Shown here piece after piece: positions 2,934-32,936 of a DNA stretch of 37,878 nucleotides. The position numbers and the translations under genes were made by a program. This DNA comes from Lachnospiraceae bacterium (GTDB lineage: Bacteria > Bacillota > Clostridia > Lachnospirales > Lachnospiraceae): NCBI GenBank assembly GCA_017618195.1, contig JAFZUW010000055.1:1-37878 (forward strand), written 5' to 3'. Within the stretch, counting starts at the first letter, position 1. Each line of letters starts with the position of its first letter. Below the pieces are notes generated by a model. The model was not told the origin of the DNA and ran no database searches. It saw only the letters and a list, made by a program, of their open reading frames with translations.

Positions 2934-4141
2934 TCTCCCTCCATACGGCTATGTCTTATCTTGTGTCGCAAAACTGTATTACAAAAATATCGGATATCGT
3001 CCATCGCGTGGTCGTTCTCTTTTATAACCTTATCCTCAGATGATTTTTCATCCCACCTATACAGGCCGAATTCGGAAATCGTTGATCCGCAGGAACGATG
3101 AATTTTAATGTTTCCGTTTTTAAGGTACACAGCAACGCGCCGGATCCCGTCCATTACGTCGTTATACGCCTGTATTACCGTGAACCCACGTTTTCGCAGA
3201 GCCGCAATGAACGAGGCCGCAGACGGGTCTACGACGACGCGCTTGATTTTTCGATCTCCTGCCAGTTTTTCAACCTCGTCGCAATATTCCTCGTCGGTCT
3301 TTGGAACAAACTGAGTGCGCCCGGAATAGTAGTATTCTGCAATTCGTATTGCTCTCGTCCCAGCCAGACACCATAAGCCAGCCGAAAACGGATTCATAGT
3401 ACCATAATCCACCGAGATATAAAACTCGCCAGATTCGGGCTTCTCGTCGATTATATTGTCCTCCCCAAAATCGTAGACCAGCCCTTCGGCGATACACCAT
3501 TCTCCGAGAATGTACCGGCGATAGAAGACGCCGGTATACATTGATTCGTACCGCGTCCGGATTGATTCGGACAGACCGGGGTTATCTGACAGGCCAAAAT
3601 GAAGATGTAGCGCATTGTGTTCCGCCGCTCGCTGAATCCATTCTGTATAGAACCAGTGCTGAGGTGGACCGGGGTTACAGTTAAACCAGAGCCGCGAACC
3701 GTCCACAGAACAACGGGCCATCGCCTGTTCCGCGAAAGATCTCGGCATGAGTGCCACTTCGTCCAGCAGGACACCTGCCAGCGTGCGGCCCTGAATGAGC
3801 ATATATGACTGCTCGTCATGCCCGCCGAACACCTCAAAAGTATTTGAAACTGTTCCGCGCGAGACGATCAATTCCTTTGATCCTCCGCGCCATTTCAGCG
3901 AGTATTTCTCCGTCGCCCAGCCGAGCAGACGGAACGGCTGGATCAGGTTCTTTACGCAGGAATCAACGGTTTTTCCACAGATTCCGAACCGATGTCCGTT
4001 ATAATTACGCATCGCCCAATCGATGAACGCAACCATCATCAAGGACGTTTTGCCTGTCCGGATTGCCCCATCGCAGATGAGCGCATCAAAATGCGTATAA
4101 GGAAACGCGAGGATTTGCCTCTGTTTCTCACTGAGCGGCAT
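2930..4141 (-). CDS. terL: Terminase large subunit
   Basis: This is the packaging motor: an N-terminal ATPase that pumps DNA and a C-terminal RNase H-like nuclease that cuts it. Visible motifs in order: Walker A GAIRTGKTS (about residues 25-33), Walker B VLLDEVALM (about 125-133), the coupling motif LWFNCNPG, then nuclease acidic residues in ISVDYGTMNP, VVVDPSA and HAMDDIRY. Its 403 aa is close to the usual 400-450. The start lies 14 bases inside the small-subunit gene, and the stop overlaps the portal start by four bases. Confidence 0.95.
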   Translation of the reverse strand: MPLSEKQRQILAFPYTHFDALICDGAIRTGKTSLMMVAFIDWAMRNYNGHRFGICGKTVDSCVKNLIQPFRLLGWATEKYSLKWRGGSKELIVSRGTVSNTFEVFGGHDEQSYMLIQGRTLAGVLLDEVALMPRSFAEQAMARCSVDGSRLWFNCNPGPPQHWFYTEWIQRAAEHNALHLHFGLSDNPGLSESIRTRYESMYTGVFYRRYILGEWCIAEGLVYDFGEDNIIDEKPESGEFYISVDYGTMNPFSAGLWCLAGTRAIRIAEYYYSGRTQFVPKTDEEYCDEVEKLAGDRKIKRVVVDPSAASFIAALRKRGFTVIQAYNDVMDGIRRVAVYLKNGNIKIHRSCGSTISEFGLYRWDEKSSEDKVIKENDHAMDDIRYFCNTVLRHKIRHSRMEGE

Positions 4142-4628
4142 TTCCGGCCTCGATTCTCGCCGCTTCTTCCTTCAAAGCGGCTGTCAGCGCATCGTCTACG
4201 GACAAATCTTCCGGCGCGGCGATTAACTCCGGCGGCTTGTCCCGCCATCTATCAGGGCGTCGGTTTTTCAGCCAGATAAACGCCGCCGCAGTATCGGGAA
4301 TAACCTGCCTGGTCGTTTTCTTGACGTGCTTCCGCTTCGAACCGTCCGGCTGTTCAATAATTTCCGTCGTCACTTCCTCGTATTCATATCCGAGGGCGCG
4401 TTTCAGAAGTGCGTTTTCAACCTGAATGTCGACAGGAGCTTTTCCTTTTTTAAGGGCCTCACGAATCTCTTGATGCTCATTCTGCCAGCGGTAAAGCGTT
4501 CCGGCTGCAATTCCGATTTTTTGCGCGATTTGCTCGTCGGTCAGACCGTCCCGCGCCCATCCCTCAATCTGTAAAAGACCTTCTTTTTCAGTCCACTCCT
4601 GATATTTTCCCGTTGCAATCGTTCTCAC
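4128..4628 (-). CDS. terS: Terminase small subunit
   Basis: The 166 aa protein carries an N-terminal helix-turn-helix (GLTDEQIAQKIGIAAGTLYRW) that would recognise the packaging site. An oligomerisation region follows, ending with IWLKNRRPDRWRDK, a segment typical of this family (Terminase_5/YqaS-like). It overlaps the large-subunit start. The frame opens with GTG at 4628, 41 bases inside the upstream transporter gene. The AAGGGG motif sits immediately before that GTG, which is closer than normal, so the exact start is uncertain. Confidence 0.88.
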   Translation of the reverse strand: MRTIATGKYQEWTEKEGLLQIEGWARDGLTDEQIAQKIGIAAGTLYRWQNEHQEIREALKKGKAPVDIQVENALLKRALGYEYEEVTTEIIEQPDGSKRKHVKKTTRQVIPDTAAAFIWLKNRRPDRWRDKPPELIAAPEDLSVDDALTAALKEEAARIEAGNAAQ

Positions 4629-5289
4629 CCCTTTTGCGTGTCAACAGGTAAAAGAATGGCGTGTCAAGCGCAGCGAGAATGAATTTCAGCGCATACTGCC
4701 CGACCATCATAGCCGCGAGACTCGCCCACATTTCCGGCTTGAAAAGCCAGCCAAAACCAAGGCCAAACGAAATCCCGATAAAGAGAACGGTGTCTATAAT
4801 CTGGCTTGTCATCGTGCTTGCGTTATTCCAAATCCATCTGCCGCCGGAAGTGCTTCCGTGCTTTGCGATGTACTTGTCTCTGATCTTGTGGAAGAAATAG
4901 ACGTCCCAGCTCTGGCTTGCAAAATAGGCAACCATGGAACCCACAACGAAAATCCAGTTCTGTCCGAGGAGCTTATTATAAGCCGCCTGTGCTTCCGGGT
5001 CAGCCGCCGGAAGATACTGCGTCAGAATAATGAGAAGTGTCGCAAGGACCTGCCCCACAAAACCCCATCGAACAGTTCGGTTTGCCTCTTTCTTCCCCCA
5101 AATTTCCCCGATCACGTCCGTCGCAAGGAACGTGATTGCATAGCACACAGCCGCGCCGGGAAGCGTAAGAATCGATCCGAACAGGCTTATGCCCGTGTAA
5201 ATCAGTTTTGCCGTTACCACGTTCGAAATAACGAGCGCGACGACGAAGATCATGTTAATACCTATGAGATTGCTGGCGGTTTTTTTCAT
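4588..5289 (-). CDS. Queuosine-precursor transporter, YhhQ/QueT (VUT) family
   Basis: The 233 aa integral membrane protein has about six hydrophobic segments. Features of the vitamin-uptake-like YhhQ family are the N-terminal LIGINMIFVVALVISNVVTAK helix, FLATDVIGEIWGKKEA, ASQSWDVYFFHKIRDK, WIWNNASTMTSQIIDTVLF and a C-terminal ALDTPFFYL. Family members import 7-deazaguanine bases such as preQ0, preQ1 or queuine. Here it follows DpdA-, QueC- and QueF-like genes, so it probably feeds a DNA-modification pathway in the host membrane. AAGGAAGGAAA precedes the ATG. It overlaps the previous gene by 35 bases and the terminase small subunit by 41. Confidence 0.88.
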   Translation of the reverse strand: MKKTASNLIGINMIFVVALVISNVVTAKLIYTGISLFGSILTLPGAAVCYAITFLATDVIGEIWGKKEANRTVRWGFVGQVLATLLIILTQYLPAADPEAQAAYNKLLGQNWIFVVGSMVAYFASQSWDVYFFHKIRDKYIAKHGSTSGGRWIWNNASTMTSQIIDTVLFIGISFGLGFGWLFKPEMWASLAAMMVGQYALKFILAALDTPFFYLLTRKRGENDCNGKISGVD

Positions 5290-5608
5290 TGGAGTTTCCT
5301 TCCTTGTCTGTTTTGATTATTGTCACCGGAAAATGTGTGTTGCTTTCCGCGAAGACCGAAACGGTTGTCTGTAATGGCTTATATTCCTGCATTATCTGAT
5401 AGACGCGAACTGCCACGTCTTCGGCAATAATCGATTCGCTCGACAACGCCTTTATTTTCCTGTCGACTTCGCAGAAGTCAAACAGGAATTCGCCCGGAAT
5501 GATTGCGACCTTGATTGCCGCTTGGTACATATCTTTTCCGAGCGGGCAAAATAAACGTATTGCCCGGTCAAAAACGATAGCTGAAATTCCTTGCTTGTTC
5601 TCAAACAT
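5255..5608 (-). CDS. Short QueF-like (T-fold) protein
   Basis: The 117 aa protein starts at the ATG at 5608, with GGGAG seven bases upstream and an eight-base overlap with QueC. I see a match in pattern to the catalytic core of preQ0 reductase QueF. FCPLGKD (Cys21, Asp26) sits where QueF has its Cys-Pro and downstream Asp. IIPGEF then leads to CEVDRKIKAL, where Glu47 aligns with the substrate-holding Glu of VESKSLKLYL. EDVAVRVYQIM follows, then a strand TTVSVF. The Cys-to-Asp spacing is shorter than in known QueF. It could reduce preQ0 to preQ1, modify a related base (for example a CDG decarboxylase-like role), or only bind it. The C-terminal about 17 residues lie over the transporter start. 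Confidence 0.5.
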   Translation of the reverse strand: MFENKQGISAIVFDRAIRLFCPLGKDMYQAAIKVAIIPGEFLFDFCEVDRKIKALSSESIIAEDVAVRVYQIMQEYKPLQTTVSVFAESNTHFPVTIIKTDKEGNSNEKNRQQSHRY

Positions 5609-6251
5609 TTTGACGCTCCCTCGCAAGAATGCGTTCATTTACGATCCAGTCGTTTTCTTCCAGCTCCCGAATAATGGCTTTGCTGTCAATGTCATATTCC
5701 CCGGGATAAATGTGGTCGAGGTACAGAAGCCGCCGTTTGCACGCGAGGCATTTGCCGCAGTTCTCGCCCTTATAGCAGGAAATGATATTTCGCATATCAG
5801 GCTTCCCGGCCATTTCCCACATCGTGATCTTGTCATAGTCAAAGAATCCTTTTACATTGACATTGAAACGATTTCCGTTCGTTCCAAACATACTGGCAAG
5901 AAGACTGAGGCAAGAAAAATAGTACGGGCTTTTATCGGGCGCGGTTGCGTCTTCTTTGACGCCGCAGATATAGACCTCAATTTCAGGATCGAGGTCCCTC
6001 TCTGCATCCGGCATAACAGAAGCAGCCGCGATTAACGCCATTATCGCGTTTCTCTGCGGGATATGATAGCCGTCTGCCAGCGCATACCTCTGCAAATCGA
6101 CGTCCTGAATCTCCACGTCAGCAGGAAGATTTTTCATTTCGATTTCGGAATAGGGAGTGTGAAAATTGATGTAGAGCTTTTTGGCGTCGGGATGGATAAA
6201 CGACGCACAATAGCTGTCCCACCCCCCCGAATACATCAGAACCTTTTTCAT
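5601..6251 (-). CDS. queC: QueC-like 7-cyano-7-deazaguanine synthase
   Basis: The 216 aa protein belongs to the PP-loop ATPase family that converts 7-carboxy-7-deazaguanine to preQ0 with ATP and ammonia. Visible motifs are the ATP-binding SGGWDS (residues 8-13), HIPQRNAIM (63-71) matching the PxRN motif of QueC, and a zinc site of four cysteines at about 159, 165, 168 and 171 (CYKGENCGKCLACKRR). The start ATG at 6251 overlaps the DpdA stop as ATGA and has GGAAAGGAA upstream. QueD, QueE and GTP cyclohydrolase are not in the window, so the substrate must come from the host. Confidence 0.9.
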   Translation of the reverse strand: MKKVLMYSGGWDSYCASFIHPDAKKLYINFHTPYSEIEMKNLPADVEIQDVDLQRYALADGYHIPQRNAIMALIAAASVMPDAERDLDPEIEVYICGVKEDATAPDKSPYYFSCLSLLASMFGTNGNRFNVNVKGFFDYDKITMWEMAGKPDMRNIISCYKGENCGKCLACKRRLLYLDHIYPGEYDIDSKAIIRELEENDWIVNERILARERQNV

Positions 6252-7108
6252 AATTTCCTTTCCGCATATTTCTGGAACTTGATCCATTCGATATAATTGT
6301 GAAGCGCGGCTTTTTTACTGTCTCCGAGACGGTGACCCTTCGGGACGTTCTTTTTCTTCATAGTTTCTCCGTCGAAATAATAAAGATACCCGAAACGGTT
6401 TCCAGTTGTCCACGCGGTTGAATCCACGCTATCAAAGTGGCATTTCGGCAACAGGTCAAGCGCGGTAAATCCAAGACCGTGGATTTTCTTTCCTCGTTTG
6501 TGCGCTTCGCTGATGAACCACGGATAATTTCTGGTATAAGCCTTCTGGCGCGGGTCGCTGGCCTTTATTGCCGCGACATAACCGCCGAGAGCGACATATG
6601 GGTACTCGTCACAATGCCGGAGGAATTCGTTTTTTCCTCTGCTGATATGCCAGACAGGAATACATTGTTTCCCTGTCAGCTTTTCGAGCTTCGTCCTGTA
6701 CGAAAGGACCTTTTCATAGCCTGTGATCGAATCGACGTCAAGCTCAAAAAATTTGTCCACTCTGTTCCGGTTGATGAAATCCGCATACCGTTCGAGATAT
6801 TCTTCGAATTTGCTTTCCTGAAAGCCTCCCGTACCGCAGAACGTAAATGCGCCGCTATCAAGCAAGAAATCGCCATAATATGGGATAAGGCGTTCCGTGT
6901 CTGCATCAGCGTAATAGAAGGATTCGAGGATAAACGGCTTGTGTTCTCGGATGACCGGATCATACATCCCATCGCTCCGCCACGGAGCGACCCCAGCTAA
7001 AAATAACTGCATATCGGATGAAGGTAATTTACCCCCGCAAGATATATTTTCATCGTGAAAATTGAAAACCCAGTGCCGGGATTCTACGCCAGCCAGAAAT
7101 ACCCTCAC
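6248..7108 (-). CDS. dpdA: DpdA-like DNA guanine transglycosylase
   Basis: The 286 aa TGT-like protein is expected to swap guanine in DNA for a 7-deazaguanine base. Visible signatures are an N-terminal VFLAGVESR, FLLDSGAFTF (Asp near residue 84), FELDVDSITG (about 121-130), the Gly pair in VALGGYVAA, HGLGFTALDLL and a C-terminal FDSVDSTAWTTGNRFG. I recognise this set from phage DpdA proteins rather than tRNA TGTs. The zinc-site cysteines of bacterial TGT are not evident. I chose GTG at 7108 because it overlaps the ParB-like stop as GTGA and leaves the conserved VFLAGVESR at the start. It is followed without a gap by QueC. Confidence 0.85.
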   Translation of the reverse strand: MRVFLAGVESRHWVFNFHDENISCGGKLPSSDMQLFLAGVAPWRSDGMYDPVIREHKPFILESFYYADADTERLIPYYGDFLLDSGAFTFCGTGGFQESKFEEYLERYADFINRNRVDKFFELDVDSITGYEKVLSYRTKLEKLTGKQCIPVWHISRGKNEFLRHCDEYPYVALGGYVAAIKASDPRQKAYTRNYPWFISEAHKRGKKIHGLGFTALDLLPKCHFDSVDSTAWTTGNRFGYLYYFDGETMKKKNVPKGHRLGDSKKAALHNYIEWIKFQKYAERKL

Positions 7109-7602
7109 GGCGTAAACCACTCGCCGCAATGCGGGCACTGAACTCGCTTCGGCTCCTTTTCTTTATCTTCCGCAGGAGCAAAAAGCTCGTCAAGGCCTTC
7201 GGGATTTACGTTGTGTTCCACAAACCCGAAGTCCGCCATGTCAAACAGGCCGTCGAGGTCGTTGAGCTCCCCTTCCAGAGTGGCAAAATCCCATCCGGAC
7301 AGCTCCGCCGTCTTGTTGTGAGCCAGTGCATACGCTTTCCGCTGATCTTCCGTCAGGTGATCAAGACGGATACACGGAACAGAAGCCATGCCGAGCGTTT
7401 TGGCAGCTTCCAGCCGTCCGTGTCCTTCAACGATGATGTTGCTTTCACCCCAAATTCCGATCGGGTCGTCGAACCCGAATTCCTCGATGCTTCGAATGAT
7501 GGCGGCGACATCCTCTTCCCCGTGCTTCCGCGCGTTGTTTTCATACGGCGTCAGCTCTTCCGGAGCGAGGTAAACGATTTGCAAGTTTGCCGTGTCCTTC
7601 AT
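7105..7602 (-). CDS. ParB/Srx-like nuclease-domain protein with C-terminal zinc ribbon
   Basis: The 165 aa protein begins MKDTANLQIVYLAPEELTPYENNARKH, then IIRSIEEFGFDDPIGI, IIVEGHGRLEAAKTLG and RKAYALAHNKTAELSGWD. This is the ParB N-terminal fold common in phage proteins, with the GHGR motif that binds nucleotide in the CTPase/ParB family. It ends with CPHCGEWF, half of a zinc ribbon. In many phages this domain precedes a DNA methyltransferase; here the methyltransferase is absent and a DpdA gene follows, overlapping by four bases. That context suggests a role in DNA modification, for example site recognition, but this is inference. GGGAGG lies before the ATG at 7602. Confidence 0.8.
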   Translation of the reverse strand: MKDTANLQIVYLAPEELTPYENNARKHGEEDVAAIIRSIEEFGFDDPIGIWGESNIIVEGHGRLEAAKTLGMASVPCIRLDHLTEDQRKAYALAHNKTAELSGWDFATLEGELNDLDGLFDMADFGFVEHNVNPEGLDELFAPAEDKEKEPKRVQCPHCGEWFTP

Positions 7603-7865
7603 TGTTTCCTCCCTGTAAAAATAATCGCCCCGTCCCGGAGTCGAACCGGGAACCGCGCAGAAAGGCAAAGGTCGCGGCGGATCCGTCTGTCTCGGGGCAT
7701 ACGCGGGACGGCTGGAAAACGGACCGCCCCGCACTCAGGAGAAACACGCAACCGGACTTGCACCGGGGAAATCGTGTGAGGAAACGATCCTGCCGCTTTT
7801 ACGCGATGCGGCATATAAATACTGAGGAGGGCAAGGGCGGGAAAGATGAAAAGAACCCGCCCCGC
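7603..7865 (-). promoter_or_regulatory. Structured 5' leader, candidate riboswitch or regulatory RNA
   Basis: About 260 bases separate the promoter at 7872-7901 from the ParB-like start and contain no gene. Successive hairpins are visible on the minus strand: GGGCGGG/CCCGCCC, GCCGC/GCGGC, ATCGT/ACGAT with an eight-base loop, CCGG-TGCAAGT-CCGG, a GC-rich arm around 7708-7735, and the tRNA-like end. The segment GGTGCAAGTCC followed about 60 bases later by CCCGAGACAGACGGATCCGCC faintly resembles cobalamin-riboswitch boxes, but the central conserved boxes are not found. No match to preQ1 riboswitch consensus was seen by eye. Confidence 0.4.
7625..7698 (-). ncRNA. tRNA-like element in the leader of the modification operon
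   Basis: On the minus strand a 73-base segment (7698 to 7626) has an acceptor-like stem GCCCCG with CGGGGC at canonical positions 1-6 and 67-72. It also has a perfect five-pair T-arm with loop TTCGACT at positions 49-65. The middle does not fold as D and anticodon arms. It instead offers one CCGCG/CGCGG stem with a 15-base loop, loosely like the tRNA-like domain of tmRNA. No anticodon can be assigned. It could be a decayed tRNA, a tRNA mimic, or part of a cis-regulatory RNA. Confidence 0.35.
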
Positions 7866-17004: not shown

Positions 17005-17048
17005 TTATCATATACCTCCTTGCTCAAATTAACCTGCCATCGTCAGCG

Positions 17049-17092
17049 CCGGGAGGTCATCCCCGGTCGGACGTCCGCCGGTATCCCGGCGG
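17049..17092 (-). other. Two tandem GC-rich hairpins in an intergenic gap
   Basis: In the 103-base gap before the Cro-like gene, CCGCCGG-TATC-CCGGCGG (17075-17092) is a perfect seven-pair hairpin. CCGGG/CCCGG (17049-17053 with 17062-17066) forms a second. No T-run follows on the minus strand, so a simple intrinsic terminator is unlikely; an RNA processing site or attenuator is possible. Confidence 0.4.
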
Positions 17093-17107
17093 AATCGTTT
17101 CGGCTTT

Positions 17108-18198: not shown

Positions 18199-18831
18199 AT
18201 GTTTTATCAAAACCTTACCCGGCTTTGCAGAGAAAAAAGGACTACCCCCACAGCCGCCGCAAAAGCCGTCGGACTTTCCTCTGCTGCCCCGGTCTACTGG
18301 AAACGGGGCTCCATACCAAAAGCCGATACTGTTCAAAAACTCGCCGACTTTCTTGGAGTGACCGTTAATGACCTGCTATCAGATAATTCCGAAACGCCGT
18401 CTAAACTCCGCACAGAAGAAGGGGAGAAGATCGCCGTTCTTTCCACGGTCGGCGCGGGCATACCCCTTGAGGCTATCTGTACTTTTGATCAGGATGATCC
18501 GGATAGCTGGGAAGAGATTTCAAAGCTGGATGCAAAATCCGGGAAATACTATGCCTTAAAAATTCGCGGGAACTCCATGGATCCGTTGATTCGGTACGGA
18601 GAAATCGTAATTGTCCGAAAGCAGGACGAATATAACGACGGCGATATCGTTGTGGTACTCGTGAACGGCGATGAAGGAGTCTGCAAATTGCTCGAATATA
18701 GGGACAATGGCGGAATCTGCCTTCGTTCTTTGAATCCGGACTATCCTCCAATGGTATTCTCGCGGGAACAGATCGAAAACTTGCCCGTCCGGATCATGGG
18801 CCGATGCGTAGAACGCCGGGGGAAATTGTAA
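18199..18831 (+). CDS. CI-like repressor with S24/LexA-type peptidase domain
   Basis: 210 aa. Residues 1-60 hold an HTH (MFYQNLTRLCREKRTTPTAA, AAPVYWKRGSIPKADTVQKLADFLGVTVNDLLS). The C-terminal domain has the self-cleavage site region VGAGIPLEA, the catalytic Ser in RGNSMDPLIRYGE and the catalytic Lys in GVCKLL, so RecA-dependent inactivation after DNA damage is expected. AAAGGAG precedes the ATG. It keeps the prophage silent by binding operators in 18076-18169, and is co-transcribed with the integrase (one-base overlap). Confidence 0.92.
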   Translation: MFYQNLTRLCREKRTTPTAAAKAVGLSSAAPVYWKRGSIPKADTVQKLADFLGVTVNDLLSDNSETPSKLRTEEGEKIAVLSTVGAGIPLEAICTFDQDDPDSWEEISKLDAKSGKYYALKIRGNSMDPLIRYGEIVIVRKQDEYNDGDIVVVLVNGDEGVCKLLEYRDNGGICLRSLNPDYPPMVFSREQIENLPVRIMGRCVERRGKL

Positions 18832-19865
18832 TGCGGCACCCGAACGGATTCGGCTCCATCGATAAGCTGTCCGGTAAACGGCGGAAGCCATACCGCGTCC
18901 GCGTGACGACCGGCTTTGAAATGGACGATGACGGACACGCGCGGCAGATTCAGCGAACCGTCGGTACATACGCCACCTATCAGGAGGCTGTTGACGCGCT
19001 GGCGGCATATAACAGGAACCCGGTGATCCTCGATCCGTCCGTGACCTTTGGGGAAGTTTATCGAAGATGGAGCGCGGAGAAATATCCATCCATGAGTGAA
19101 TCAACGGCGAATACGTATGCCTCGGCATACGCGGCGATATCTGAAATCCTCGGGAACGCAGAGTTCCGCAAGCTGCGCCGGGCAAATTTGCAGGACGCCG
19201 TTGAGCTTTCCGGGCGGGAATATCCCACGCTTCAAATAATCCTCGTCGTGATTCGCGGAGTGTATAAATATGCAATCAGGAACGATATCATTGACAAGGA
19301 TTACAGCCAATACCTAAATATAAGCAGATTCAAACCGGATGAAGACGGCGAACCGATGCATAAGATTTTCACGAGTGAGGAAATGTCCGCACTGTGGGAC
19401 CATAAGGATGACCAATTCGTCCGGGAAATCCTCATGCTCTGTTACAGCGGCCTTCGGATCGCTGAATACCTCGCCCTGACGCCGGAGGATATTGACGTCC
19501 CGGCCCGTTTTTTGACGGTTCGGAAAGCTAAAACAAGGTCAGGAATACGGCACGTTCCAATCGCTGAGAAAACCGCCGCCTTGTGGGAAGAGCTTCGGGA
19601 AAGGAGAAAGACTCCGGATGCCCGGAGATTGAAAGCACAATATGATAAGTTCGCCGATGTCATGACGGCGAAGATGGAGCAGATCGGCCTTGATCGGCAC
19701 CTTCCGCATGATACCCGGCACACCTGTGCGAGTATGCTGAAAGAGCAGAAGGTTGATCTGCTCGTCATCAAGCGCATCCTCGGCCACCGCATCAATGATA
19801 TGACGGAACGCGTTTATATCGACCTGACGGACACCGCGCTGTTGGAGGCGATCAACCGCCTGTGA
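18831..19865 (+). CDS. int: Tyrosine-recombinase integrase
   Basis: 344 aa from ATG 18831, which overlaps the repressor stop (TAATG) and has GGGGGA upstream. The N-terminal RHPNGFGSIDKLSGKRRKPY resembles an arm-binding domain, followed by a SAM-like core-binding region. The catalytic domain shows Arg in YSGLRIAEYLAL, HDTRHTC with the His-x-x-Arg, GHRINDMTERVY with the second His and nucleophile Tyr about 10 residues from the end. It catalyses integration and excision at attP. Coupling to the repressor gene means int is made in lysogens. Confidence 0.95.
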   Translation: MRHPNGFGSIDKLSGKRRKPYRVRVTTGFEMDDDGHARQIQRTVGTYATYQEAVDALAAYNRNPVILDPSVTFGEVYRRWSAEKYPSMSESTANTYASAYAAISEILGNAEFRKLRRANLQDAVELSGREYPTLQIILVVIRGVYKYAIRNDIIDKDYSQYLNISRFKPDEDGEPMHKIFTSEEMSALWDHKDDQFVREILMLCYSGLRIAEYLALTPEDIDVPARFLTVRKAKTRSGIRHVPIAEKTAALWEELRERRKTPDARRLKAQYDKFADVMTAKMEQIGLDRHLPHDTRHTCASMLKEQKVDLLVIKRILGHRINDMTERVYIDLTDTALLEAINRL

Positions 19866-25541: not shown

Positions 25542-25925
25542 CTACACCAGCACCGGGTCAACCCCGGCCTGCTCGATCTCCAGCGTGACGCCGTACCATT
25601 GCTCCACGCCCTCGTCGTCGTATTTGAACGACTTGAATTCCGGCATCCCGACGTAACATTCGTCCTGCCGGTCCCCTTCGAGGGACGGCCACTGCACCGT
25701 AAGAACGGCGTTTCGGGAGATCATCTGTTTGAGCTTAATAAGACTTGCCACGGACAGCCAGCCGGTCGGGACGTTCAGCTTGTTTTTGATCCCTGTCACA
25801 TCCATGACAGTTTTCCCGGACGCCATGACCGCCCGTTCCCCGACGATTTCAGGCGTCCACTCAAACTCCAGATCGGAAAGAAGCTGAACGGTATCTTTTC
25901 CGTCCGTTATCGAAATCCTACGCAT
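25542..25925 (-). CDS. Distal/minor tail protein (127 aa)
   Basis: I chose ATG 25925, which overlaps the tape-measure stop by eight bases, over the longer frame that runs into that gene. MRRISITDGKDTVQLLSDLEF, RAVMASGKTVMDVTGIKNKLNVPTG and QWYGVTLEIEQ fit a tail protein family that follows tape measure in Bacillota siphophages. It is probably part of the distal tail complex. Unusually, lysis genes follow immediately and no hub or fibre genes are here. Confidence 0.7.
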   Translation of the reverse strand: MRRISITDGKDTVQLLSDLEFEWTPEIVGERAVMASGKTVMDVTGIKNKLNVPTGWLSVASLIKLKQMISRNAVLTVQWPSLEGDRQDECYVGMPEFKSFKYDDEGVEQWYGVTLEIEQAGVDPVLV

Positions 25926-28566
25926 ACGCCACTTCCTTTCCGTTACCCTTCTGCGTCGTCGTCCGGCGGAGCGGATCATACAGCGCACGCGCCGCGATGT
26001 CCCCGTCAAGGACGAGGTTGATTTCTATCGGGTCACCGTTGCGCGAACCGTATAAGGCCATGTTCGATGAAATCCCAGCAGCGGACGAACGCCCGATGGC
26101 GGAGTCAGAGAATTTCGCCTGCACCGTCTCGCTCAGGCCTTCGAGGTCATTTTCGACCTGCATTTCCAGCGTTCCGAATTCCCGGCCCCAGCCCTGTTCC
26201 ATACCGGCCACAAGGTTTTTACCGATCCCGGCAAAAACTGTTGACGGGGAATGAATTCCGAAGAAACCGAGAACGCTGTCAACAAGCCCGTCGAGGAGGC
26301 TCATCACCCAATTTTTAAACACGTCCCACGATTCACTCAGACCCTTTTTAATACCATCGACGATACCTTTGCCGACTTCCCAAAATTTACTCGGAAATTC
26401 CTTAAACCACCCCAGCATGGAATTGAATTTCTCCGGGACCCATTCCGTACAGAAGCGGCCGACTGCATCTACGGCGGCTTTGGCACCTTCCGAAAATGCG
26501 GTCCAGAGTTCGTTGACGCTGTTTCGGAAATCCTCGTTGACTGCGTATGCCGTCACAAGCCCGGCGGCAAGTGCGCCGATCGCAGTCACAACGAGCATCA
26601 CGGGGTTTGCGTTCATTGCGGCGTTTAAGATTCCCTGTGCAACCGCCATCGCTTTAGCCGCAAGTTCTCCGGACACAAGTGCGGATTTCAGCAGTATGAA
26701 ACCTGTCGAAACCGTGCTGACAATTTGCATCGCTATCAGTCCACCCGCGACCGCCGCGACCCATGGCGCCCACTTTTCAAAGCTGTCCGCAAGGTCTTTC
26801 ACCGTTTCGGCGATTCCGTTTGCCAGATGCCCGGCGAGCTCTCCGATTTTCGAGGCAACCGTCCCGAGACCCTCTCCCGCGCTTTTAATCGCCGAGCCGA
26901 GAGCGTCGGAAAACGGGGCGAACAGATCTGCAATGACTCCAGCTACAGATTCGATGGCGTCAACCGCGGCTCCTTCGTCGAAGACCTCAAAGAATTTCTG
27001 AATGCCGCTTGCAACGCCTTTGATTACGGATTCCCCGGCGATAAGAAAATTCCCAAACAGGTCGGCGGCATGGTCGGCAATGTCTCCGATGATCTTCCCG
27101 ACGTCCGAAGATTCAAACGCGCTCAGAAATTCCTTCACGCTTCCGGCAACCGCGCCTATCGTGTCGCTTGCGATCCCGGCAAAAGACGCGCCGAATTCCT
27201 GAACCTTTTCGGCGATATCCGCAATCTTTTCGGCAGCCACCTCTTCCATGCTTGCCGCGAATTCGGACACAGCCGCTCCCGCTGTTTGAATGGCTTCCCC
27301 GAACGGCCCGAGCTGCCCGGCGAGGTCGGAGAGCTTGTCTATCACGAAGCCGCCGATCATGTCCCCGATCGTCGAAAACGCCTCCGACAGTCCTCCGTTG
27401 TTGATGGCATCCGTCAGCTGAGACATCACCTCGGACGCGGTTTGCGCCATGTCCCGAAGCGGTTCCTTCGCCTTGTCATAAATCGCGGTTTTCAGCCCGT
27501 CGAACGCGGACTGGAAGATCGTCACGTCGCCTTGCAAGTTGTCCAGCTGTGTCGCGGCCATTTCCGCCGCCGCACCGATCCCGCCCATTGCCTCTGACGC
27601 GGAATCGATCGTCGCCGCAAGGCTGTTATAATCCGCTTCGGACGTGTTGATGATCGCCAGCATTCCGGACATGGCTTCCTGACCGAACAGCAAAGCCGCC
27701 GTCTCAGCTTGCTGAGACGCGTCAAGCCCGGAAAACGCATCCCGAAGGACACTAACCACTTCGGAGAACGACCGCATGTTTCCGTCCGCTTCAGTTAAAA
27801 CACCGCCATCAAGCCCCAGCCGCGCCATAGCCGCAGCCGCGTCATCTGTGGGTTTTACAAGCCGTGTGATCGCCGCCCGAAGCGCGGTACCCGCCTGACC
27901 GCCTTTGATGCCCGAATTCGCCATCGTGCCGATCGCTGTTGCCATATCCTCGACGGAGTAGCCCATCGTCCCGGCCAGAGGCGCGACGTATTTGAAGGTC
28001 TCACCCATCATGCTGACGTTCGTGTTTGCCGCCGCAGATGCCGCCGCAAGAACGTCCGCAAAATGCCCGGAATCTTCTGCCGACAGTCCGAAAGCCGTCA
28101 GCGCATCCGTCACGATGTCCGACGTCGTGGCAAGATCTTCGCCGGACGCCGCCGCGAGGTTCATGATACCCTCGATACCGGACAGCATAGATTCGGCGTC
28201 CCACCCGGCCATGGCCATATAGGAGAACGCCTCAGCCGCTTCCGTGGCAGTGAATTTCGTGGTCGCGCCCATTTCCTTCGCCTTGTCCCGAAGGGAATCA
28301 AATTCCTCCCCGGTCGCGCCGGAAATCGCCGCCACGTTCGACATCGCCGCGTCGAAATTCATGCCGGTCTGCACGGATTCCTTTCCGAGATCGATCAACC
28401 CGGACGCGGCCTTTGTCGCCATATTCCCGACCATTGTCCCGACGGCGACCTCGCCCGTTCCGACGCTCGACCCGAGGCTCTGGAATGCTCCCTGTGCCTC
28501 CTGCACGCCTTGCATGAACGCATCGCCGTTCAAGGAGATGGTCGCCTGAAGGTCAAAAATATTCAT
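25918..28566 (-). CDS. Tape-measure protein (TP901 family)
   Basis: 882 aa. The N-terminal third is the TP901 core: AAMSNVAAISGATGEEFDSLRDKAKEMGATTKFTATEAAEAFSYMAMAGWD (shown in parts), MANSGIKGGQAGTALRAAITRL, LFGQEAMSGMLAII. The middle has amphipathic helices in repeat-like units (VSEFAASMEEVAAEKIADIAEKV), and two hydrophobic segments lie near residues 625-690. At about 0.15 nm per residue the tail would be about 130 nm. The start has a weak GGTGAC site and follows the 75 aa gene closely. Confidence 0.95.
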   Translation of the reverse strand: MNIFDLQATISLNGDAFMQGVQEAQGAFQSLGSSVGTGEVAVGTMVGNMATKAASGLIDLGKESVQTGMNFDAAMSNVAAISGATGEEFDSLRDKAKEMGATTKFTATEAAEAFSYMAMAGWDAESMLSGIEGIMNLAAASGEDLATTSDIVTDALTAFGLSAEDSGHFADVLAAASAAANTNVSMMGETFKYVAPLAGTMGYSVEDMATAIGTMANSGIKGGQAGTALRAAITRLVKPTDDAAAAMARLGLDGGVLTEADGNMRSFSEVVSVLRDAFSGLDASQQAETAALLFGQEAMSGMLAIINTSEADYNSLAATIDSASEAMGGIGAAAEMAATQLDNLQGDVTIFQSAFDGLKTAIYDKAKEPLRDMAQTASEVMSQLTDAINNGGLSEAFSTIGDMIGGFVIDKLSDLAGQLGPFGEAIQTAGAAVSEFAASMEEVAAEKIADIAEKVQEFGASFAGIASDTIGAVAGSVKEFLSAFESSDVGKIIGDIADHAADLFGNFLIAGESVIKGVASGIQKFFEVFDEGAAVDAIESVAGVIADLFAPFSDALGSAIKSAGEGLGTVASKIGELAGHLANGIAETVKDLADSFEKWAPWVAAVAGGLIAMQIVSTVSTGFILLKSALVSGELAAKAMAVAQGILNAAMNANPVMLVVTAIGALAAGLVTAYAVNEDFRNSVNELWTAFSEGAKAAVDAVGRFCTEWVPEKFNSMLGWFKEFPSKFWEVGKGIVDGIKKGLSESWDVFKNWVMSLLDGLVDSVLGFFGIHSPSTVFAGIGKNLVAGMEQGWGREFGTLEMQVENDLEGLSETVQAKFSDSAIGRSSAAGISSNMALYGSRNGDPIEINLVLDGDIAARALYDPLRRTTTQKGNGKEVAYA

Positions 28567-31826: not shown

Positions 31827-32936
31827 TCAGCCGAGCACGCGGACGGCGAGTTCGGGATACATCGTCTTATACCCGTACAGCACGTCCATGCTGAGCATCT
31901 CCTTCTTGTAGGTCATGTTGTAGCCGCGCACGACGCGGAGGCTGATGCCGTTGAAGGAAGTCGTGTAGGACTCAACGCCTGCCGGAGCCGCGAGAGGACG
32001 GGTCACGAACGCAAAGGCGTTCTCGTGGAACACGCAGTTGTACACGGTGTTCGCGGAGACGAAGGCCACGTCCGCGTTATCCGCAACATCGGCGGCAAGG
32101 CCAGTCGTGAGAACGATGTCCTGATCCGCCGAGGACAGCGCACCCGCAGACTTCACGGTATAGTAGTAGTTGCCGATCTTGATCTGGTCGCCAGCGGCGA
32201 GAGCTGTGGTCACGCCGTCGATGTGGATCTCGGTCGCGCCTTTGGAATACCCGGAGGCATAGTCCACCTTGACGGTGCCCGCGCCGGTGTTGGAGCCGGT
32301 CTTCACGACACCCTGCGCCATGTAGTTGTCGATGCCGAAGACGTTGCCGATAGAACCGGCACGGAGGGCGGCGGTAGCACCTGACTTTTCAGCGTTCACG
32401 AGGTCGCCGAGGACGCGGAATTTGCTCATGGCGGTGGGATCCCACACGCCGCGCCTCATGACGGTCGGGACCTTGTTTTCGTCCAGCACCTTCGCGGCGT
32501 TGGCGAAATCGTCGAGGCCGTCCGGGGTTGTCCCGGCGGTGCCGACGGCATACGGAATATTCTTGACTTCCTTCAGACCGTCGTCGTTGATCTTCTCAGC
32601 GAGAGCAGCCGCAGCCGGTTCGATGAACAGCCGGTTGAGGTCGTCGACGGAGGTCGCGCGGGCGATCGCGCCGAATTCCACGTCGACGGTCGCCAGCTTG
32701 TCGAGAGTCACTTCGACGGAGGTTTCCTTCACGTCCTGCGCGGAGGTGCCGGAACCTTCGTTAAACTCGGAAGCGGTCAGAATGACCGGCTTGCGGACCT
32801 GAATGGTCGCACCCTTTCCGACCTCATAGGTGTCGGAATAGTCCTTGTGGATAAGGTTCGGGAAAACGAGGTTTTCGATGAGGCGAGGCAGAGCCTGCCG
32901 AGCGATGTTTTTGATAGAGAGAAATTCGTTTGGCAT
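31827..32936 (-). CDS. Major capsid protein (P22 coat-like)
   Basis: 369 aa after the scaffold gene. MPNEFLSIKNIARQALPRLIENLVFPNLIHKDYSD, EVGKGATIQVRKPVI, DVKETSVEVTLDKLATVDVEF and a C-terminal LRVVRGYNMTYKKEMLSMDVLYGYKTMYPELAVRVLG fit the P22 coat branch of the HK97 fold. It has no long N-terminal delta domain, consistent with a separate scaffold. Middle sections include an inserted beta-rich domain (about residues 215-280). Confidence 0.88.
   Translation of the reverse strand: MPNEFLSIKNIARQALPRLIENLVFPNLIHKDYSDTYEVGKGATIQVRKPVILTASEFNEGSGTSAQDVKETSVEVTLDKLATVDVEFGAIARATSVDDLNRLFIEPAAAALAEKINDDGLKEVKNIPYAVGTAGTTPDGLDDFANAAKVLDENKVPTVMRRGVWDPTAMSKFRVLGDLVNAEKSGATAALRAGSIGNVFGIDNYMAQGVVKTGSNTGAGTVKVDYASGYSKGATEIHIDGVTTALAAGDQIKIGNYYYTVKSAGALSSADQDIVLTTGLAADVADNADVAFVSANTVYNCVFHENAFAFVTRPLAAPAGVESYTTSFNGISLRVVRGYNMTYKKEMLSMDVLYGYKTMYPELAVRVLG

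Follow-up and report, generated by a model that had tools for sequence, protein, structure and literature searches.

Introduction

Modification of phage DNA with 7-deazaguanines by the transglycosylase DpdA, as reported for phages 9g, CAjan, Rosebush and Dp-1, protects the DNA from restriction enzymes (PMC6884629). Here we analyse a stretch of 37,878 nucleotides (bases 1-37878 of contig JAFZUW010000055.1, hereafter the window) that forms contig 15 of a Lachnospiraceae genome (G000; 2.75 Mb, 98.8% complete). The window carries a prophage with a cassette of four genes, encoding DpdA, a QueC-like protein, a small T-fold protein and a YhhQ transporter. As in the four described systems, a DpdA transglycosylase adjoins pathway genes; unlike that group, the window cassette lacks FolE, QueD and QueE and has a transporter. 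The cluster of Streptococcus phage Dp-1 (QueF, QueC, QueD, QueE, FolE, QueT and DpdA) shares the grouping of a transporter, QueC, QueF and DpdA, but contains the whole synthesis pathway as well and a QueF of 173 residues that has the reductase motif. The Dp-1 DpdA aligns only poorly with that of the window (pairwise BLASTP E 0.023), and the host of Dp-1 is reported to lack preQ0 genes (PMC6884629). Fusobacterium phage phiFN37 (OR492271) has a similar arrangement, ParB-DpdA-(DUF6884)-YhhQ, with the transporter annotated 'queosine salvage'; it differs in that no QueC or T-fold gene was found and no terminase is annotated in the 12.8 kb examined. The modification status of phages with DpdA and no synthesis genes has been described as 'difficult to predict' (PMC6884629).

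The window cassette is probably a recurrent salvage version of the known 7-deazaguanine DNA modification. An earlier interpretation of the same DNA, the sequence-only reading, had considered it not a well-described version; the kind itself is known, and the salvage version recurs across phages.

Gene content of the cassette

The genes follow one another on the minus strand in the order ParB-like, DpdA, QueC-like, small protein, YhhQ, terminase small subunit and terminase large subunit:

7105..7734, minus strand: ParB-like gene, upstream partner, overlapping dpdA (phrog_620, E 2.3e-51)
6248..7108, minus strand: dpdA, DNA guanine transglycosylase; start GTG 7108 or, alternatively, ATG 7012
5601..6287, minus strand: queC of a short subfamily; likely start ATG 6251 (PF06508, E 2.9e-9)
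5255..5638, minus strand: gene of the small T-fold protein, QueF/QueF-L-like; probable start ATG 5608
4588..5289, minus strand: QPTR/YhhQ queuosine-precursor transporter (PF02592, E 3.9e-45; TIGR00697, 124 bits)
4128..4628, minus strand: terminase small subunit, bounding the cassette downstream (phrog_309, E 4.1e-55)

Neighbouring open reading frames (ORFs) overlap all along this run, and the four cassette ORFs, at 7108-4588, are coupled as had been proposed; they form one operon between the ParB-like gene and the terminase. The starts at ATG 6251 and ATG 5608 are the more likely ones because a purine-rich stretch, judged by eye, directly precedes each. For dpdA the start is either GTG 7108, which overlaps the ParB-like stop, or ATG 7012, the start position in many relatives. 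A ParB match precedes dpdA in 41 of 44 YhhQ-bearing viral loci (counted by eye), and the order ParB-DpdA-...-YhhQ-terminase recurs in many viral contigs; the arrangement is therefore not due to chance.

Import and synthesis genes at DpdA loci

Relatives of the window DpdA were collected from viral_contigs (74 loci), genome_contigs (53 loci) and four phage records, 131 loci in all, and the genes around them were called with profiles built for this analysis. Transporter and synthesis genes exclude each other almost completely: 70 loci have a transporter without QueD, QueE or FolE, 52 have these genes without a transporter, three have both (L089, L092 and L094) and six have neither (Fisher p 7e-26, kinship uncorrected). 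The same four classes, in this order, number 44, 29, 0 and 1 among viral contigs, 25, 20, 3 and 5 among genomes, and 1, 3, 0 and 0 among the phage records. They number 58, 42, 3 and 2 among the 105 loci where 3.5 kb or more follow dpdA, and 58, 45, 2 and 6 among the 111 left when DpdAs are merged at 90% identity. A quick tree built from 118 of the 132 DpdAs requires at least 12 changes between the two states, and the exchange therefore appears recurrent. Of the 70 loci, 63 have YhhQ as their transporter and seven have QueT (three of the QueT ORFs were checked against PF06177), and the presence of two unrelated transporter families in the same place points to import as the function. Phage YhhQ has been reported to show no correlation with any group (PMC6884629); within the DpdA family of the window it does correlate, being near-exclusive with the synthesis genes.

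Apart from these, the profiled genes present at the 70 transporter loci are QueC with the T-fold gene (12), a methyltransferase with the T-fold gene (7), DUF6884 (5), the T-fold gene alone (4), QueC alone (3), a methyltransferase alone (1) or none (38); DpdA and YhhQ are the only profiled genes in 35. The nearest relatives of the window dpdA on the tree, L002 and L003, have YhhQ alone, while the window yhhQ is nearest to that of L013 (88%), and the window cassette is therefore a mosaic. DpdA is rare around the host: the profile matched two of 299 genomes of its family (E <= 1e-20), the window's own included, and one of 22 genomes of its genus (E <= 1e-10), again the window's own. To judge by its short locus, with QueC, QueD and QueE, the second family genome (L137) is of the synthesis type.

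Several further genes accompany these cassettes. A methyltransferase occupies the place of QueC beside the T-fold gene in L023, L026 (Methyltransf_23, E 1e-10), L027, L032, L104, L105 and L107, and in L103, which showed no T-fold gene; these loci might make a methylated 7-deazaguanine. L104 belongs to a prophage of Faecalibacterium prausnitzii APC923/51-1 and is of the QueT type. DpdM has another fold than this methyltransferase. Proteins of the DUF6884 type adjoin dpdA and yhhQ or the synthesis genes in L050 (PF21818, E 2e-41), L051, L053, L080 and L093, and also in L035, L113 and L133. ORFs resembling nucleobase deaminases or phosphoribosyltransferases lie inside the cassettes of L018 (7506-7976), L033 (1390-1860), L028, L036, L037, L040 and L043; the deaminase-like ORF reads as guanine deaminase by eye and as dCMP deaminase according to PHROGs. 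Such proteins could remove the guanine that base exchange sets free.

Supply in the host

Searches of G000 found QueC and YhhQ as the phage copies only, and no QueD, FolE or QueF; these five pathway families are thus unmatched in the host outside the phage. QueE had no match among the 16 window ORFs scanned, no family search of QueE or FolE2 having been made in the genome. The absence of FolE and QueD noted in the sequence-only reading extends in this way to the whole genome, that of QueE to the scanned window ORFs. The genome also encodes one QueT and two full-length TGTs (contigs 28 and 74). The host appears to salvage queuosine precursors and probably provides the phage with no preQ0 or 7-carboxy-7-deazaguanine (CDG) of its own making. 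Import therefore looks like the only supply; of the import and host intermediates on which the phage had been suggested to rely, the former finds support and the latter do not. QueD was found in seven of 22 host genomes searched, which represent 21 of the 25 transporter-type genome loci and L102 (genome completeness not given). It is lacking in the hosts of three QueC-bearing loci, L090, L095 and L102, the contig of the last ending within QueC.

Proteins of the cassette

Judged from homology and predicted structure, the 286-residue protein is a DpdA, as had been proposed. It matches phrog_887 ('queuine tRNA-ribosyltransferase', E 9e-51), and a tblastn search with it matched 109 phage records, including the experimentally shown DpdA of phage 9g (a partial alignment with 27.4% identity and E 7e-6). 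Its predicted structure is the (beta/alpha)8 fold of TGT, where the structural check suggested for it had to place it. TGT enzymes have two conserved catalytic aspartates; their candidate counterparts, D84 (LDSGAF) and D229 (SVDST), are invariant in 33 alignment rows. DpdAs often have, by eye, the start motif M(K/R)xFLAG repeated at the N-terminus ahead of the core, in two or three copies (window 7012-7108; L017, L018, L036, L047, L054 with three copies, L055, L059 and L088), perhaps as scars of repeated 5' recombination beside the ParB stop codon. The DpdA of the human-faecal phage MT835482 (L078, 5962-8160) carries a long in-frame insert that appears intein-like by eye.

The transporter, left open between YhhQ and QueT in the sequence-only reading, is a QPTR/YhhQ protein, since it exceeds the cut-offs of both PF02592 (E 3.9e-45; 154.4 bits against 27.2) and TIGR00697 'queuosine precursor transporter' (124.1 bits against 50.95). 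QueT, of the energy-coupling factor type, is ruled out: PF02592 is the sole Pfam match at E <= 1, and PF06177 is not matched. The score against PRK11212 (NF008406), the equivalog specific for preQ0 and preQ1, is 33.7 bits, below its cut-off of 252. Substrates vary within this family, the E. coli member transporting preQ0 and preQ1 and a Chlamydia member queuine (PMC11130926); the literature searched yielded no report of CDG transport.

The QueC-like protein belongs to its family by PF06508 (E 2.9e-9; 37.2 bits, cut-off 22) and retains SGGWDS, IPQRN (with I for V) and the zinc cysteines SCY...CGKCLAC with Cys-Tyr, which belong to the canonical signature of PMC13329287. In its zinc region, SCYKGENCGKCLAC, five residues instead of eight separate the first two cysteines. 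In other features it departs from canonical QueC: the score against the equivalog TIGR00364 is far below its cut-off (23.3 against 150.3 bits), and the substrate motifs are replaced, YxQxHxxE by FHTPYSEIE and YPDC by APDK. Y131 of YPDC and Y35 are essential in E. coli QueC (PMC13329287); the same study tested QatC by complementing an E. coli queC deletion. By its sequence the window protein is a member of a divergent short subfamily, which adjoins dpdA also in MT835752 (L076), BS162P1 (L077), MT835482 (L078) and Phocaeicola plebeius DSM 17135 (L099, a related prophage of the synthesis type). As the only QueC in the complete DpdA-QueC-QueD-QueE-FolE sets of L076 and L099, the short form very likely performs the QueC step there. 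Besides the window, 15 loci combine QueC and a transporter without synthesis genes. In all 15 the QueC keeps SGGxD, PxRN, YPDC and the Cys-Tyr zinc region, and in 14 of them YxQxHxxE as well. Transporter-type cassettes hold two different QueC subfamilies.

The small protein has no match in Pfam (E <= 1, QueF family PF14489 included), PHROGs or NCBIfam. Structure prediction gives it a T-fold (pLDDT 88), and the closest solved fold is the archaeosine synthase QueF-L (5jyx), 102 of whose 103 residues align, at 16-17% identity. Among PDB profile matches dihydroneopterin aldolase comes first (E 5e-6) and QueF-L second (E 0.012), with the cysteines aligned. Like QueF-L, the protein is a unimodular T-fold with a catalytic-type cysteine, and the QueF-type nucleophile is conserved in its family; a glutamate with a substrate role also stands at the matching place in both. 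Unlike in QueF-L, the general acid/base aspartate, which we take to be Asp28 (C+7) by analogy with QueF, has an invariant Tyr38 in its place, with Asp36 (C+5) present in 18 of 23 rows; the substrate would be DNA, that of QueF-L being tRNA. The QueF-L aspartate is named in the literature without a residue number (PMC5485725). Cysteine and T-fold agree with the QueF-like protein proposed from sequence. The motif E(S/L)K(S/A)hK(L/Y)(Y/W) serves NADPH-dependent reduction in QueF; its E[SL]K[SA] part, present in Dp-1 gp1, occurs in none of 23 family members. With this motif lacking and QueF-L the closest fold, a reduction that feeds preQ1 to DpdA is therefore not supported. Of the 70 transporter loci 23 have the T-fold gene, of the 52 synthesis loci none. 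The gene accompanies QueC in 12 of the 15 transporter loci with QueC, against 11 of the 55 without it, leaving three with QueC only and 44 with neither (p 3e-5, kinship uncorrected).

Prophage setting

The window carries a temperate siphophage, in agreement with the sequence-only reading. The prophage also encodes RecT and a DnaD-like loader, and its identity is seen from:

18804-19865: integrase (phrog_1, E 1.5e-48)
18199-18831: CI-like repressor
25918-28566: tape measure
31827-32936: major head protein

Near the repressor region, at 17028-17105 on the minus strand, lies a match to the type II hammerhead ribozyme that scores 33.1 bits against a gathering score of 37.

Discussion

We consider it probable that the operon serves 7-deazaguanine DNA modification of the salvage type and is supplied by import. 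As far as sequences and predicted models indicate the enzyme activities, the transporter substrate, the base made and its protective effect, the phage QPTR/YhhQ protein would bring a 7-deazaguanine base, either preQ0 or its precursors CDG and 7-amido-7-deazaguanine (ADG), into a host that apparently makes none. Where CDG or ADG arrives, the short QueC would turn it into preQ0, and DpdA would exchange guanine in the phage DNA for preQ0 or the finished base. The T-fold cysteine would attack the nitrile and most likely lead to the archaeosine amidine (dG+), preQ1 being the less likely product, and phage DNA so modified would resist restriction. DpdA homology, the QPTR transporter and the locus pattern uphold the salvage-type modification that had been proposed, but not its host-fed and reductive parts.

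Other explanations share parts of this scheme. YhhQ might import preQ0, the T-fold protein reduce it to preQ1 with NADPH, and DpdA insert preQ1. The conserved nucleophile cysteine would suit such a reduction, and Dp-1 contains dPreQ1 and HVTV-1 mainly dPreQ1 although HHpred calls their proteins QueF-L (PMC6884629); given the missing reductase motif we regard this as rather unlikely. Another explanation is an auxiliary metabolic role in which the cassette raises queuosine in host tRNA and modifies no DNA. A host with TGT and QueT, in which no synthesis genes were found, would gain queuosine from additional import. The cassette adjoins the terminase, however, and half of the transporter-only loci hold just DpdA and YhhQ among the profiled genes, while tRNA queuosine needs no DpdA, so that we judge this role very unlikely. 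DpdA is present in each locus by the design of the search, and its presence is therefore no test of this role.

The puzzle of the salvage cassette is QueC, which needs CDG, in a setting with no source of CDG: either CDG or ADG is imported, or QueC is retained or repurposed. A leftover QueC, no longer needed once QueD, QueE and FolE were lost on gaining the transporter, would agree with three Bacteroidales loci of the intermediate order DpdA-QueC-YhhQ-QueD-QueE-FolE and with the YhhQ-only cassettes of the nearest dpdA relatives. The motifs kept across the 15 transporter loci, the occurrence of two QueC subfamilies and the association of QueC with the T-fold gene (kinship uncorrected) all speak against it, and we find it unlikely. 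Tentatively, and with more doubt than confidence, we propose for cassettes with QueC and a transporter but no QueD, QueE or FolE that CDG or ADG enters through the phage transporter. From it, QueC, a T-fold amidinotransferase and DpdA would produce archaeosine DNA inside a bacterium unable to make any 7-deazaguanine, with the supply side as a swappable module. CDG or ADG import as a salvage route was found nowhere in the literature searched.

The small QueC and QueF-L-like subfamilies, the methyltransferase and the DUF6884 protein provide leads to further DNA bases. A single DpdA family appears to draw on two interchangeable supply modules beside dpdA, synthesis or import. If this is true, the DNA modification of these phages, and with it their resistance to restriction, would hinge on bases that neighbouring microbes release.
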